Source: Candidatus Poribacteria bacterium (GTDB lineage Bacteria; Poribacteria; WGA-4E; WGA-3G). From it: a DNA stretch of 7,779 bases. The notes under the pieces were generated by a model. It made no database searches. It was given only the letters and a program-made list of their open reading frames with translations, and was not told where the DNA came from. A program made the translations under genes and the position numbers. The DNA lies in the NCBI GenBank assembly GCA_028818995.1, contig JAPPMR010000678.1:1-7779 (forward strand), written 5' to 3'. How positions within the stretch are numbered: position 1 is the first letter of the stretch; each line of letters opens with the position of its first letter. Shown piece by piece: positions 1,946 to 7,779 of the stretch.

Positions 1946-2296
1946 ATGAAAATACCAAATGCTGAACGTGCTGTCGTGGACATTCGTAAGCTGCGAGATT
2001 ACTGTCTCAATCCACAGCATCGTAGAGGGAAACATAAAGCCCGCTTATTTACTTCCTTGCTCGGTATGAATTCTGATAATGCAGAAGAGTTACGCAATGC
2101 CTTGTTAGAAGCTGTCAGGAAACAAGACGCACAATTAGGAGATAAGGACGCTTATGGACAGCGTTATACGCTTGATTTCACATTGAATTGGCGGGACAAA
2201 CAAGCAACAATTCGGAGTGCTTGGATTATTGAAACCAATACTGACTTTCCAAAATTGACGACAGCGTTTCCGTTGATAAATCAGGATAAAACATGA
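1946..2296 (+). CDS. DUF6883 family protein, coupled to the downstream STAND gene
   Basis: A 116-aa soluble protein I recognise as a DUF6883-type domain covering almost its whole length. It opens MKIPNAERAVVDIRKLRDYC. Conserved blocks follow: NPQHRRGKHKARLF (22-35), LG and the ELRNALLEAV helix (39-57), YGQRYTLDF (70-78), IRSAWII (89-95) and FPKLTTAF (101-108). The H/R/K-rich block and the Y-x-LDF and RSAW strands look like a small enzymatic or nucleic-acid-binding fold, but no activity can be read from sequence. In my recollection this family is usually encoded just upstream of a small DUF4926 protein, a toxin-antitoxin-like pair of unproven function. Here the next gene starts at ATG 2293 inside the stop codon (ATGA overlap), and its first domain is DUF4926. 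ATG 1946 lacks a clear Shine-Dalgarno sequence (only GGTGGG about 19 bases upstream), but the family match starts at this methionine. Confidence 0.75.
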   Translation: MKIPNAERAVVDIRKLRDYCLNPQHRRGKHKARLFTSLLGMNSDNAEELRNALLEAVRKQDAQLGDKDAYGQRYTLDFTLNWRDKQATIRSAWIIETNTDFPKLTTAFPLINQDKT

Positions 2297-5200
2297 AAAA
2301 CAAATCTTCCGACAACACCTTGAACACAGATAACTTGGCTGAACGCAATCAAGAACCTACAGAAGAAGGCAAAATCAAACTTCTGGATGTCGTCGCGCTC
2401 ACACAGGATGTCCCTGAGCATAATCTCAAGTGCGGAGAAGTCGGCACGGTCGTTGAAATCCTTGCGAACGGTGAAGCATTTGAGGTGGAATTCAGTGATG
2501 ACAATGGGCAAATGTCCAAGTGTCTTAGTTTCCCCGCATCTCAATTAGAGATATTTCACCAAGAACCGATAAAAGCAGACACCAAGCGTCAAGCAGATGC
2601 TTCACTCAGAGGATATCGCTATCAAATCTTGCACAGTGTGGAAGCTTGGCTGGACCTTACTGAAGGTGAAACCCTTTACCTGGAAGGTTTAGAGGACTTT
2701 GACATAATATCAGATGACACCGTTACCGCAGTGCAAGTCAAAGACACGCAACGCAATATCACTCTCAAATCTAATGATGCACTTCATGCCATCAATTGCT
2801 ATTGGGAATCACAGATAAGAAATCGAGATCGACGTGTGAAATTCCGTTTTCTCACCCGTTCCAAGATTGGGAAAGAACGAGGCAACCCATTTGGAACAGA
2901 TAAACCGGGTCTTGAAGTATGGAGGCATTGTTCGGGTAATGAAGAAATCGTCAAAAAAATATCAGAATTCTTACAAAATCAAGAAAAAATATCAGATGAA
3001 GTAAAAAATTTTCTAAAACAGACTTCACCTCAACAAATTTATGAACGACTCATTGAACCAATTGCTTGGGAAACAGGCAGCAAAGATGCCAACTTTGTTC
3101 AGCAATCGATAAGTGATAAATTGGATCATCACGGTAATGAACTAGGACTTTTACCTTTTGATGCCAGTAAAGTTCTTGATGCTCTTCTCAATGAAGTGTT
3201 CACGGTCGCAACCCATAAGGAAAACCGCAAACTTACCAAAAAACGTTTCTTTAAAATTTTTCAAGAGAAAGCGACAGAAAGGGTTTCAACTCAGTATTTG
3301 CGGCACCTGCAAATGCTGGCAACACAGGCAGCAAGGGGTGATACTGCCAGTGCAGCCTCCATCGGCAATCCATCTGATGTTGCGATTCAATCATATTCTC
3401 ATATACAAACTGTTATCCCTCCACTTTATCCTGATGTTTTCCAGAGAACAGAGCTGCTTACAAGTATCCAAATTAAACTCCAATCAGATGGCATCGCTAT
3501 AATTCAAGGAGGTACCGGAAGAGGAAAAACTACCCTCACCAAGTTAACTGCGAATGATATAGATAGTGACTGGTTGTGGCTGAATCTCACAAACAGAGAT
3601 ACGTCTCTGACTCGCCAATATCTACAGCAACTTGCTAATGGAGTAAGTAATCAATCTGTACAAGCCAACGTTGTTCTTGATGACCTGAATTTACAGCCTC
3701 AAGAGTTACGGGTCTATGAAGAAATCTTGAGCACTGTGATTTACAGTGTCCTTAAACGTGGTGCAAAATTGCTGATCACGAGTCAACATAAACCGCCTCC
3801 CAATCTCATCCGCAGCCTCGACGTATCATCCTCTGTAACGATCAATGTTCCTAACTTTACTGAACCTGAAATAAGGCAATTTGCCGAAGAAATGGGGTGT
3901 CCTGCTAATGACCTAGACACTTGGGTAACATTAATTCAAGCACATACGGGTGGACATCCGAGACTTGTACATGCTTGGCTCGTCCAATTGCAGGAGGAAG
4001 GTTGGACAGAACAAAATATACTCACAAGCATCCTACAACCCCCCGAAGAGGTGAAAGAGGAGCGTGAAGCAGCAAGACTATTGCTTACAGATTTGCCAAA
4101 AGATCGTCGGGAATTCCTTTATAGACTTAGCTTGATGTCTATTGGATTTAGGAAAGATTATGCACTAAACCTGGCAGAAATACCAGAACCTATATTCCAT
4201 CCAGGAGATGTTTTCAGCCAACTGGTTGGTCCTTGGATAGATCAAGTTAGTGAAACCTATTACACAGTCTCACCTTTATTGACTAACGCAGCCAAAGAGG
4301 TTTGGGCGGAGAGCAGGATAAAAGATCTCCACGCTTATATTGCAAACGCAATCCTCAAAACAAAGAACCTGACCATAACAGAGGCATGGACTGTGCTCAC
4401 ACACAGTATGATTGGACAAAACAGAGGAGGGTTTATTTCTGTTATCCATGCCCTGATGACTGCTCAAGAGGATGATTGGAAAAATCTCTGCCAAGAATTC
4501 TCGTGGTTAGCAAGCATTAAAACTGATCCTCATGAAGAATTATTCCCAGGTGATGCCTTTGTAAATCAAATGTTTCGATCATTGCAGTATCGAATTGCAG
4601 TTGAGGTAAGACCAAAGTTAGTACCAAAGATACTTGAAAATTGGGATAAGGAAGCCAAACCTTATAAACCCCGACAGTCATACTTGCTGTCTCGTCTCAT
4701 GTTAGCAACAGAAATACTCAAATATAATCAAGGGACACTACCAGCTAAGAAGCTGATAGGTTATCTTAAAGAAATTATTGATATCAAAAACATGAACGAA
4801 AAGGTTTGGAAGTCATACTTTAATTCCATGGAAGAATTAAAAGAAATAAACATTGATGAATCAAACTTTTTCAGTTTCCTATTTAGTTTTATCTATATGC
4901 GTCCAGAAATCAACGCTGTTTTTCTCAATCAACTTATTGATACACTGGATAAACTTGATCCAAGAATTAGAAAGTTATTATTAGTTGACTTTGAAAATGA
5001 TACTATTCAATCACAACTTTTGAATAATGGAGTTTGGTTAACAGAGGAAAAGCTTGAAAATCCTAATTGGACAAGATGTCTTGAAGCTTTCGATAAAGTA
5101 ATTGAAAAAACTATTGCCTGGGGTTATCCATATATCGCTGCTGCATCAGCAAAAATTAAAGCCATCATCCATGACGAAAAATTGAGCGACCCAGATACCG

Positions 5201-6627
5201 CCCATAAAGTTCTTAAAGATATTGTATTAGAAGTCGGAAGGTTACCCATAATAGAAGAAGAGCAAGCATTGGTACACTTCCGCCAGGAACATTACAGAGA
5301 AGCACTTAATATTTACGAGCGTATTCTCCCGGAGTGGAATCCACCATCAGAACAATTAAACATTGGACCTTTAGAAGAATATCGACGTGCTGCTATTTGT
5401 GCCACACAATTGGGCGACTGGGAAAAAGCTGCCACTTTTTTTCAAGAGGGAGCAAAGAAAACTCAAAAGATTGAAAAGACTGAAAGATATATTGCTCTGT
5501 ATGCAGACGCAGGATTTGCTCATTTTAAAGCAGGTAATATGTTAGATTGCATAAAACTATTGAATCTGGCATTGCAAAAATTTGAGGCACTCCCTCAAAA
5601 CAATACAGATGTTAGGTATTTTACTTTAAAGCAACGTTTAATATATACCATGAGATGGGTAGCAGTGCCTAATCATCGAAATCATTCTTCGGAACTTGAA
5701 GCACTGCCAGCAGGTTTCTGTAGCAATCCAGAAACAGATGAAAAAGTTTTAGATCTACCCGATTCTCCAATTGGAGAGACTTGGGTAAATCTGGCACAAA
5801 TCGAGTACAAGTTTGGGGATAAAACGACAATCTTTCAGAAGGCTTTACAGATCCCAGATCGGAAGGCATATCCAATTTTAGATATGTCCCTTTCTCTACT
5901 TGAAACACGACATGATTTTAGAAACAAAACCTTTGATAACTTGCCACAGCGTATATATCAATTAGCGAGAGTGTATGCCTCAGGACGGAAGCATGATGAA
6001 AGTGGAAGAGGAATCGGAGAAAAAGGGTCGTATTCTATATCTATTCCTGATCTATCCAATTTCGCTTCTGTTGAGAAGATTACTGCCTTGTTGGTAGCGT
6101 CCCTCCTTGTTCAACTGTCAACAGATGTAGATATGAGCAAATTTCTGGCTATATGGCGTACAAATTCGTCAGAACTTCCAATAAAAGAAAATATATTTAC
6201 TGCTCTTGATCTAATTGAATCAATGTTATTAGAAGATCAAAACCAGGCTCTTACAACAATGAAAACCTTAGATACTAAAGTCGAAAAACGGCTTGCAGCA
6301 GTACTAAAAGTCATTCAGAACAAGGAAATAAGTCCAAAAGATCTCTTTTATGCACATACATTCATCACTACCTCGCTCATTGGTAAAACATGGGAAGGTT
6401 TTGTCGTGACGGATTTAGCAGAGATGCTTTCTGCACAGTGGCTTGAAAAAAAGATGGACATACCTATGCGCGGCTTGTCTCAGGTAGAAAAAGCCTGTAA
6501 CAGCAATGAGACTGGAAAGAAAAAAATAGGACAGATCCTACTTGCAGTACTTCAAGCCATCTCACCCAGAGCACCGTCTGAGATGTCTCAGAAGTTCCGC
6601 AGCTGGATAGAATCGGAATCAAGGTAG
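2293..6627 (+). CDS. Avs-like STAND NTPase: DUF4926 + Cap4-like nuclease + NTPase + TPR sensor
   Basis: A 1444-aa multidomain protein, probably an antiviral STAND sensor-effector acting in the cytosol. Residues 27-90 (KLLDVVALTQDVPEHNL, GEVGTVVEILANGEAFEVEF) form a DUF4926 domain. Residues 97-340 resemble the Cap4/DUF4297 PD-(D/E)XK endonuclease: SLRGYRYQ (104-111), E131, EDFD (134-137) and QVK (148-150) as likely active-site elements. The STAND NTPase follows, with Walker A GGTGRGKT (406-413), Walker B VVLDDL (460-465), sensor-like LLITSQ (493-498) and the GGHP motif (553-556). After a probable winged-helix part (about 590-680) comes a long helical region with TPR-like repeats near 986-1100. 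In known Avs proteins the C-terminal part binds a phage protein and triggers oligomerisation and nuclease activity. All catalytic motifs look intact. Ribosome site AGGA (2283-2286), 6 bases before ATG. The middle and end are visibly more A/T-rich than the DUF4926 part and the glycosyltransferase. The specific trigger is unknown. Confidence 0.8.
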   Translation: MKNKSSDNTLNTDNLAERNQEPTEEGKIKLLDVVALTQDVPEHNLKCGEVGTVVEILANGEAFEVEFSDDNGQMSKCLSFPASQLEIFHQEPIKADTKRQADASLRGYRYQILHSVEAWLDLTEGETLYLEGLEDFDIISDDTVTAVQVKDTQRNITLKSNDALHAINCYWESQIRNRDRRVKFRFLTRSKIGKERGNPFGTDKPGLEVWRHCSGNEEIVKKISEFLQNQEKISDEVKNFLKQTSPQQIYERLIEPIAWETGSKDANFVQQSISDKLDHHGNELGLLPFDASKVLDALLNEVFTVATHKENRKLTKKRFFKIFQEKATERVSTQYLRHLQMLATQAARGDTASAASIGNPSDVAIQSYSHIQTVIPPLYPDVFQRTELLTSIQIKLQSDGIAIIQGGTGRGKTTLTKLTANDIDSDWLWLNLTNRDTSLTRQYLQQLANGVSNQSVQANVVLDDLNLQPQELRVYEEILSTVIYSVLKRGAKLLITSQHKPPPNLIRSLDVSSSVTINVPNFTEPEIRQFAEEMGCPANDLDTWVTLIQAHTGGHPRLVHAWLVQLQEEGWTEQNILTSILQPPEEVKEEREAARLLLTDLPKDRREFLYRLSLMSIGFRKDYALNLAEIPEPIFHPGDVFSQLVGPWIDQVSETYYTVSPLLTNAAKEVWAESRIKDLHAYIANAILKTKNLTITEAWTVLTHSMIGQNRGGFISVIHALMTAQEDDWKNLCQEFSWLASIKTDPHEELFPGDAFVNQMFRSLQYRIAVEVRPKLVPKILENWDKEAKPYKPRQSYLLSRLMLATEILKYNQGTLPAKKLIGYLKEIIDIKNMNEKVWKSYFNSMEELKEINIDESNFFSFLFSFIYMRPEINAVFLNQLIDTLDKLDPRIRKLLLVDFENDTIQSQLLNNGVWLTEEKLENPNWTRCLEAFDKVIEKTIAWGYPYIAAASAKIKAIIHDEKLSDPDTAHKVLKDIVLEVGRLPIIEEEQALVHFRQEHYREALNIYERILPEWNPPSEQLNIGPLEEYRRAAICATQLGDWEKAATFFQEGAKKTQKIEKTERYIALYADAGFAHFKAGNMLDCIKLLNLALQKFEALPQNNTDVRYFTLKQRLIYTMRWVAVPNHRNHSSELEALPAGFCSNPETDEKVLDLPDSPIGETWVNLAQIEYKFGDKTTIFQKALQIPDRKAYPILDMSLSLLETRHDFRNKTFDNLPQRIYQLARVYASGRKHDESGRGIGEKGSYSISIPDLSNFASVEKITALLVASLLVQLSTDVDMSKFLAIWRTNSSELPIKENIFTALDLIESMLLEDQNQALTTMKTLDTKVEKRLAAVLKVIQNKEISPKDLFYAHTFITTSLIGKTWEGFVVTDLAEMLSAQWLEKKMDIPMRGLSQVEKACNSNETGKKKIGQILLAVLQAISPRAPSEMSQKFRSWIESESR

Positions 6628-6830
6628 AAAGCGGATCTACAACGGAAAAGAATCCAATTGCACAACGCCTCATCAAAGAGATGGAAAAACCACATCTCAC
6701 CCATGAAGATATTGAGGCATTGCAACAGCCAATCAAAGAAGGGAAGACCGCTATAAAATTCGATTCGCCCTTTAAAATGACTAAACTTTGGACAATTTTT
6801 AAAGTTTTTGTTTGGTTGCTTTGGTGGTAG
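6582..6830 (+). pseudogene. out-of-frame protein-like tail or gene remnant after the STAND gene
   Basis: An open frame of 82 codons without its own start, in the -1 frame relative to the STAND gene and overlapping its last 46 bases. It reads DRIGIKVESG, then NPIAQRLIKEMEKPHLTHED, then an IEALQQ helix and KFDSPF, with the amphipathic, charged character of a real protein up to about 6774. The last 19 residues (tryptophan- and phenylalanine-rich) run into AT-rich DNA and are probably not coding. The join SWI (STAND frame) to DRIGIKVESG (this frame) is natural, so a single-base deletion near 6600-6620 may have cut the STAND protein's true C-terminus. It could equally be the remnant of another gene. 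No slippery heptamer for programmed -1 frameshifting is visible in the overlap. An internal ATG (6681) lacks a spaced ribosome site. Confidence 0.45.
6783..6810 (+). terminator. weak AT-rich terminator candidate after the STAND operon
   Basis: AAACTTT (6783-6789) pairs with AAAGTTT (6801-6807) over an 11-base loop, followed by TTTG and TTTGG. The stem is only 7 bp and poor in G/C, so termination would be inefficient. It is nevertheless the only T-tailed hairpin seen after the large gene. Confidence 0.3.
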
Positions 6831-6883
6831 AAATCCAAAGGACGTTGATGCTATCAAGGGATCAGGTTATTCAAAGTAATCTC

Positions 6884-6957
6884 TTTAGTCCCGTAGGGAC
6901 GATATGTTTATAGAAACGCGTTCCCTTCCGCCATTTAGCCCCGTAGGGGCGGCATGT
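6884..6957. repeat. two CCCGTAGGG stem-loop units, 50 bp apart
   Basis: A 24-base unit at 6884-6907 recurs at 6934-6957 with four transitions. Each holds a perfect 5-bp hairpin with GTA loop: GTCCC/GGGAC (6888-6900) and GCCCC/GGGGC (6938-6950). Two of the four changes are a compensating T-A to C-G swap within the stem. This fits a dispersed intergenic repeat family under structural constraint. Further right, GCTATAGA is repeated at 6971 and 6994. The whole gap 6831-7179 shows no convincing gene, only these repeats, the inverted repeat pair and the regulatory sequence before the methyltransferase. Confidence 0.6.
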
Positions 6958-7065
6958 GAACACGGTTATGGCTATAGACGGAGGGTTTCCCCTGCTATAG
7001 AGACTTATTATGTTTTTTCTATGAGTTCTACCTTGGTCTAAATTCGTAGAAAAACCGGAAAATCC

Positions 7066-7100: not shown

Positions 7101-7179
7101 AAACTTTAGTTAAAATGAATGAACACGAAAAAAAATGAACAAGTTCGCACAGCACAGATAAACCCAAAAGGAGTTGCCC

Positions 7180-7779
7180 ATGCCAACACTTGAATTCAAC
7201 GGAAAACACCATATCTACACCCATCACCTCACCGTTCCGTACCGACCACTTGAAACTGACGAAAGCTGCTCTTGCAACCCGACCAGTGAAAACGATAACC
7301 TCATTATCCACGGCGACAACCTGCACGCTTTAAAAGCATTACTCCCACGCTACAAAAACCGCATCAAGTGCATCTACATCGACCCACCGTATAATACCGG
7401 TAATGAGGGTTGGGTCTACAATGACAACGTTAACAGTCCGCTGATGAAACAATGGTTCACAGAGAATTCCCCCATTGATATCGAAGATCTGGAACGACAC
7501 GACAAATGGCTCTGTATGATGTGGCCGAGATTGCATCTACTCAAAGAACTGCTTTCAGATGATGGTGTAATTTTCGTTTCAATTGATGACAATGAAGTAC
7601 ATCACCTGCGAATGTTGATGGATGAGATTTTTGGCGAGAAAAATTTTTTTGCGGTTCTTACGCGAAGAGCAATGCATACTGTACGTAACTCCAGCAAAGA
7701 TTTTAATCACAATGCCGACTACACTTTGGTTTATGCTAAAGAAAAATCATGGTTTGGTGAAGACAAAAGTCGGTATATT
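7180..7779 (+). CDS. mod: type III-like Mod DNA adenine methyltransferase, N-terminal part
   Basis: The first 200 codons are present and the gene runs off the right edge. The protein begins MPTLEFNGKH. LIIHGDNLHALKALLP (41-56) precedes CIYIDPPYNTGNEGWVY (64-80), where DPPY (68-71) is motif IV of N6-adenine amino-methyltransferases. WLCMMWPRLHLLKELL (110-125) and DDGVIFVSIDDNEV (127-140) follow, as in the beta-class order where the SAM-binding motif I lies C-terminal, outside the window. Such enzymes are modification subunits of type III restriction systems, with a Res helicase-nuclease usually encoded next, though related solitary enzymes exist. It would methylate adenine in a specific site, using SAM. 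Ribosome site AAAAGGAG (7166-7173), 6 bases before ATG 7180, fixes the start. Its position next to an Avs-like gene supports a defence island. Confidence 0.85.
   Translation, partial: MPTLEFNGKHHIYTHHLTVPYRPLETDESCSCNPTSENDNLIIHGDNLHALKALLPRYKNRIKCIYIDPPYNTGNEGWVYNDNVNSPLMKQWFTENSPIDIEDLERHDKWLCMMWPRLHLLKELLSDDGVIFVSIDDNEVHHLRMLMDEIFGEKNFFAVLTRRAMHTVRNSSKDFNHNADYTLVYAKEKSWFGEDKSRYI

Follow-up and report, generated by a model that had tools for sequence, protein, structure and literature searches.

What is a putative antitoxin domain doing at the N-terminus of a large sensor nuclease? The question is raised by a contig of Candidatus Poribacteria bacterium (JAPPMR010000678.1, assembly GCA_028818995.1), the whole 7,779 nucleotides of which were analyzed and are called here the window. 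Poribacteria are sponge symbionts. A first-pass annotation had proposed a two-gene defence system in which a full-length DUF6883 gene is coupled by an ATGA overlap to a 1444-amino-acid (aa) open reading frame (ORF), hereafter ORF2, carrying DUF4926. Both assignments were confirmed: the first gene matches PF21814 over residues 2-110 of 116 (105 bits, E 3e-30) and ORF2 contains DUF4926 (71.3 bits for a cut-off of 29.1). With moderate confidence, we read the locus as a toxin-antitoxin module whose antitoxin is now the N-terminal domain of an Avs-like sensor nuclease, so that the toxin would be freed on sensing. The antitoxins of two toxin-antitoxin families seem to be fused to this sensor, and that of one family also to the restriction enzyme HsdR. 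Such an arrangement suggests that one protein both detects infection and restrains a toxin.

The fusion recurs. DUF4926 was identified by Pfam in 61 of the 120 nearest ORF2 homologues and not in the other 59 (homologue counts refer to the best 120 of at least 409 found by protein search). This proportion, together with fused genes in several assemblies, rules out a chance fusion or an assembly artefact. The remainder of ORF2 had been annotated as nuclease, STAND NTPase and TPR-like repeats. The motifs named do lie at the residues given and are conserved: E134, D135, Q148 and K150 are invariant in the 119 homologues covering these residues, K412 and D463 in all 120. The nuclease part is recognized by the PADLOC LmuA model (6e-16, residues 98-340) and by DUF4297 (1e-6). 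The window copy gave no match to the Pfam Cap4 model at E <= 1, and Cap4 is matched in relatives (P0002: 35.3 bits, cut-off 26.2). The STAND and TPR matches of the window copy all fall under the curated Pfam cut-offs (NACHT E 0.003, nSTAND3 E 0.005, TPR_12 E 1e-4); the STAND motifs are upheld because they are conserved across homologues. The nuclease-STAND-TPR architecture with conserved catalytic residues thus stands, its last two parts with sub-cut-off Pfam matches.

The distribution of DUF6883 and DUF4926 was then analyzed outside the sensor family. In 84 Poribacteria genomes, 40 DUF6883 places over the Pfam cut-off and 92 DUF4926 places were retained (after removal of two sub-threshold rows per family). 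DUF4926 lies directly downstream and on the same strand at 38/40 DUF6883 places, and a divergent DUF4926-like ORF follows the other two (by eye). DUF6883 is missing at 54 of the 92 DUF4926 places. As in type II systems, the toxin candidate is rarely without its antitoxin and the antitoxin may be alone. Adjacent small genes, another type II trait, were also seen at 8/9 plasmid loci (9 of 10 DUF6883 records: 7 adjoin an annotated DUF4926, one a DUF4926-like ORF, and one is a capsid fusion), and the two reading frames overlap at 6/6 fused loci. In 398 Pseudomonadota genomes, DUF6883 exceeds the cut-off at 10 places, 8 of which are paired with DUF4926 or a DUF4926-like partner; some of these partners lie upstream of DUF6883, and two are below the cut-off. 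Among the ORF2 homologues, DUF6883 is on the same contig for 14/61 of those bearing DUF4926 versus 2/59 of those without it, a rough proxy, and both of the latter have truncated starts.

The nearest solved folds of DUF6883 are toxins, i.e. its predicted fold is shared with known RNase toxins. It resembles the CdiA-CT BECR tRNase toxins (Kp342 and EC3006, with CdiI immunity) in fold and in the likely position of active-site residues, mapped from the end offsets of aligned ranges and not from a residue alignment (PMC9086364). It differs from them in being a small separate gene paired with DUF4926, with no delivery gene seen in the window. DUF6883 is probably a BECR-fold RNase toxin, and probably a tRNase, and DUF4926 is predicted to be its antitoxin; both roles are read from pairing and fold. 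A search of the open-access literature returned no mention of DUF6883 and one paper that mentions DUF4926. On an Anoxybacillus plasmid, DUF6883 is located near the C-terminus of a phage minor capsid protein (L127:1439-2875). It is very improbable that DUF6883 is a processing or regulatory subunit with an RNase fold, and DUF4926 an SH3-like adaptor recruiting it to the sensor. Such a role would suit the weak match of an HsdR-fused DUF4926 (see below) to an Xrn1 SH3-like model (E 0.0015, under cut-off), but sits badly with the toxin folds, with the capsid fusion and with the truncated DUF6883 genes found beside retained DUF4926, which fit a dispensable toxin.

The first-pass annotation was supported in part. 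It overlooked a second arm of the system: its limits, 1946..6627, are correct for the window, but in relatives the system extends past 6627 to a VapB-like tail and a PIN toxin. A profile built on the ORF2 family picked up small ORFs in which DUF4926 is joined to the last ~50 positions of the family. Of the 120 homologues, 76 carry the VapB-like tail (~50 aa, about RKNPAAQRLIKAMEKPPHLTDEDIEALNQSIKEGKIPIKFDSPF); the 120 are distributed as follows: DUF4926 and tail, 37; DUF4926 only, 24; tail only, 39; neither, 20. Thirteen full loci have the tail in frame, and 11 of them are followed by a 138-aa PIN protein whose start overlaps the sensor stop. This protein matches PF01850 (42.6 and 47.8 bits) and, below their cut-offs, the NCBIfam VapC models; its nearest solved structures are FitB and VapC. 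The PIN family gave 47 match rows, some of them fragments, in 36 of the 84 Poribacteria genomes. At the best 30 of these 47, the tail is always upstream of PIN (30/30), at 8-19 bases in 28 cases and at 82 and 111 bases in two cases with a partial PIN match. Its hosts are the sensor family (13, of which one lacks the nuclease and one is a fragment at a contig edge), HicB-like (2), DUF4926 (2), AF2212-like (1) and other short VapB/DUF2281-like modules (12); these names were given by eye, and in six proteins scanned AF2212 alone, besides DUF4926, had Pfam support over the cut-off. This constant position indicates, by association, that the tail is a PIN-binding antitoxin tail. As in the VapBC type II systems, the PIN toxin of relatives directly follows an antitoxin with a short C-terminal tail (30/30). 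The window lacks an intact arm: its tail lies out of frame, and no PIN gene was found (no match with E < 0.5).

Shorter forms of the family were also observed. In two ORFs, L095:1498-3261 (587 aa) and L096:1267-3012 (581 aa), nuclease and STAND are missing and DUF4926 is fused to the TPR part and tail; a PIN gene follows L095. ORFs of ~160 aa (L099, L101-L105, L107) consist of a leader and DUF4926 joined straight to the PIN-type tail; a PIN gene is downstream only in L107, and an intact DUF6883 is present in none. These ~160-aa ORFs either arose from the sensor gene by deletion or represent its ancestor.

To relate sensor ends and toxins, 17 full loci were compared: the window, L001-L013, L089, L091 and L093, leaving out L014 (contig ends in the gene) and the fragments L094-L098. 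L093 (broken in two frames) and L008 (separate DUF4926 gene upstream) were counted as unfused. The gene order of the window is found again: an upstream DUF6883 is beside 6/8 DUF4926-fused loci versus 0/9 unfused loci (p 0.002), with the same ATGA overlap in all six, window included. A complete PIN gene is present at 11/13 loci with an in-frame tail versus 0/4 without (p 0.006). L012 keeps the tail and has a PIN reduced to its first 12 residues (weak match, E 0.06), in L001 and L004 the tail sequence is located past the ORF2 end, and in L089 no tail was found. The two toxins tend to exclude each other, PIN being present at 1/6 loci with DUF6883 versus 10/11 without (p 0.005). Strict mutual exclusion is ruled out by L003, which reads DUF6883 - DUF4926-nuclease-STAND-TPR-tail - PIN. 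In all, at least one toxin is beside 16/17 loci; both are found in L003 only, neither in L091 only.

Purifying selection is visible on each module, with median dN/dS of 0.21 for DUF6883 (6 loci), 0.20 for PIN (11) and 0.09 for the fused DUF4926 (9). On the STAND-TPR tree, DUF4926 requires 30 changes, of which well-supported branches force 27, and the tail requires 12. Both sensor ends are thus often exchanged. Such exchange might be mere recombination: DUF4926 and tail would ride the ends of a fast-recombining paralogous family, with no role in the sensor and with incidental toxins. The 27 or more DUF4926 changes, the ~160-aa ORFs and the 581-587-aa deletion forms fit this explanation. We nevertheless consider it improbable, for each end matches its toxin (p 0.002 and p 0.006), the fused DUF4926 is under the selection just given, and stop and start codons overlap at both junctions (6/6 and 11/11 loci).

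DUF4926 is fused to a second defence enzyme. In a Pseudomonadota genome (G236), a 1098-aa type I restriction HsdR ends in DUF4926 (L180:917-4566; 32.5 bits, cut-off 29.1), overlaps the upstream HsdS gene (Methylase_S 25.4 bits, cut-off 22) and is followed by a DUF6883 gene (91.4 bits). Four protein clusters carry this fusion, including the query; the others are 69-87% identical over the DUF4926 end, and the gene context is known from one. No other DUF4926 in a frame longer than 200 aa was found in 249 genomes of the same order. Another candidate, a 729-aa DUF4926 frame in G356, was rejected: it resembles an open frame of GC-rich sequence, in which start codons immediately precede DUF4926. The HsdR fusion may point to a general way of putting defence enzymes under a toxin safeguard. 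No DUF4926-STAND, VapB-STAND or antitoxin-HsdR fusion was found in the open-access literature searched with the terms used.

The same module on HsdR can also be explained by addiction, which is the main rival of the sensing reading and accounts for the same genomic facts nearly as well. The modules would stabilize the defence gene, loss or breakage of the sensor poisoning the cell; the toxin would not be an immune output and would never be released on sensing. The one-way dependence of toxin on antitoxin, the presence of at least one toxin beside 16/17 full loci with both in L003 alone, and the frequent exchange of the sensor ends are all consistent with it. A separate adjacent antitoxin gene would however be expected to do equally well; fusion couples the antitoxin to those parts of the sensor that move, and it is found on two unrelated defence enzymes. 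We regard addiction as unlikely, though a serious contender.

Several observations weigh against the main reading. DUF4926 is retained without DUF6883 in L005 and L009, and no partner was seen at two of the ten Pseudomonadota DUF6883 places (L113, L118). For DUF6883, Foldseek alone gave no match below 1e-3 (best 6vek, 3e-3), and a profile search of the PDB sequences gave none. The structure model of ORF2 is poor (pLDDT 61), and the sequences are mostly metagenome assemblies, in which frameshifts are possibly errors. The end swapping discussed above belongs here too. Finally, the 20 homologues without either antitoxin part (3 of them start-truncated in appearance) and the 4 plasmid homologues examined (of 24 records), in which DUF4926, DUF6883, tail and PIN were not found by annotation or by tblastn with Poribacteria probes, indicate that the toxins are dispensable for the sensor.

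These plasmid homologues are distant (24 records; 24-34% identity among the best 15). The best 15 are mostly proteobacterial, plus a Deinococcus and cyanobacteria, and 14 of them align from ORF2 residue 87-105, i.e. from the nuclease onward. Of the four examined, one (L194) has ~100 additional N-terminal residues with no Pfam match. Since the modules are missing from these four, the core has the look of a self-standing defence protein, to which the modules observed in Poribacteria seem to have been added. In the genome scan, 13/14 sensor loci are in Poribacteria metagenome-assembled genomes. The remaining close copy (L014) is on a 3.6-kb contig of a gammaproteobacterial one, by transfer or binning error. 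A viral origin was rejected as far as searched, with no ORF2 relative in viral contigs or phages and no DUF6883 in phages.

Table 1. Coordinates of the DUF6883-sensor locus in the window
Feature	Position	Strand	Support
DUF6883 gene, 116 aa, predicted BECR-fold RNase toxin	1946..2296	+	
ORF2, 1444-aa fusion DUF4926 - Cap4/LmuA-like nuclease - STAND NTPase - TPR	2293..6627	+	
ATGA overlap of DUF6883 stop with ORF2 start	2293..2296	+	same in 6/6 DUF6883-bearing full loci
DUF4926 domain (residues 30-86), predicted DUF6883 antitoxin	2380..2550	+	PF16277 71.3 bits; pairing; dN/dS
Cap4/DUF4297/LmuA-like nuclease (residues 98-340; E134, D135, Q148, K150)	2584..3312	+	
STAND NTPase core, approximate limits	3445..4008	+	K412 and D463 120/120
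STAND P-loop (residues 406-413)	3508-3531	+	
STAND Walker B (D463, D464)	3679-3684	+	
TPR-like repeats (residues 991-1071), presumed sensor part	5263..5505	+	TPR_12 E 1e-4, under cut-off
VapB-like tail, frame 3 vs ORF2 frame 1	6642..6773	+	tblastn E 1e-19, 80% identity

The single promoter that had been placed before both genes found no evidence, because TTGAAA-17-TATACT at 1832-1860 is one of 2 promoter-like sites and shuffled sequence gives 1.2. At 1064-1653, upstream of DUF6883, lies an AF2212-like antitoxin gene (36.2 bits) followed by short ORFs resembling remains of PIN and HicB-like genes (by eye), i.e. a decayed toxin-antitoxin area. Short repeated stretches, like small mobile repeats (by eye), are present at 1655-1720 and 6880-6990, beside the operon and near the position of the PIN gene in relatives. 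A type III restriction methyltransferase (Mod) gene runs off the end of the window (7174-7779), and the same gene, or part of it, is found a short distance beyond the sensor gene in L002, L005, L006, L089, L091 and L093 (by eye). The sensor therefore seems placed within a common defence island.

How would such a locus work? In the proposed mechanism, the DUF4926 domain of the 1444-aa protein would bind and silence DUF6883, and the nuclease-STAND-TPR part would serve in defence by sensing phage and cutting DNA. Across the wider family, the C-terminal VapB-like tail would likewise silence the VapC/PIN RNase encoded next to it, so that one sensor would restrain a single toxin or two. The toxin would stay bound as long as the cell is at rest. 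Upon infection, the TPR part may bind a phage protein, the STAND core oligomerize and the nuclease become active; the sensor being rearranged or consumed, the toxin would be freed and, as an abortive output next to the nuclease, stop translation. A damaged sensor would release the toxin as well.

Known systems share parts of this scheme. Avs are antiviral STAND proteins that include Cap4-STAND-TPR types. ORF2 is like these in its N-terminal nuclease, central STAND NTPase and TPR-like C-terminus, and the Foldseek matches of its model include Avs4 bound to phage portal (8dgf, rank 46, E 7e-6); the ORF2 family differs in carrying an antitoxin domain at either end or at both, next to a toxin gene. 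No Avs-named PADLOC model was matched by the window protein (E <= 1) or by 4 homologues (E <= 0.01), the Avs content of the library not having been checked. LmuA of Lamassu is the closest PADLOC model for the nuclease part, and among its closest folds. An SMC-like ATPase partner, LmuB, defines Lamassu-Cap4, and the window has no gene for it. PARIS (AriA-AriB) likewise has an ATPase that senses and holds a toxin, which cuts tRNA, but the ATPase and toxin families are other ones and the PARIS sensor is not known to carry a nuclease. CapRel-SJ46, for its part, is a single fused protein, not known to have the STAND or second nuclease found here. Its antitoxin part doubles as phage sensor, which shows that an antitoxin can serve in this way (PMC10865869). 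The terms STAND, NACHT and NLR do not occur in the main text of PMC11980606.

A fuller form of the sensing reading is put forward tentatively, as possible rather than probable. The NLR-like sensor nuclease would double as antitoxin for two unrelated RNase toxins in a tripartite immune complex, its N-terminus restraining a BECR tRNase and its C-terminus a VapC/PIN RNase (the arrangement of L003); sensing, or phage sabotage of the sensor, would then release the translation-stopping toxins. The DUF4926-HsdR fusion would reflect a general toxin safeguard on defence enzymes. If true, Avs-like sensors can own a second arm that stops translation, as well as a fail-safe by which the toxin is freed when a phage disables the sensor, and the DUF6883/DUF4926 pair gains a function. 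Toxin-antitoxin modules would then be physically tied to NLR-like and restriction enzymes, and the locus would offer a directly testable case for sensing versus addiction as the purpose of toxin-antitoxin fusions.
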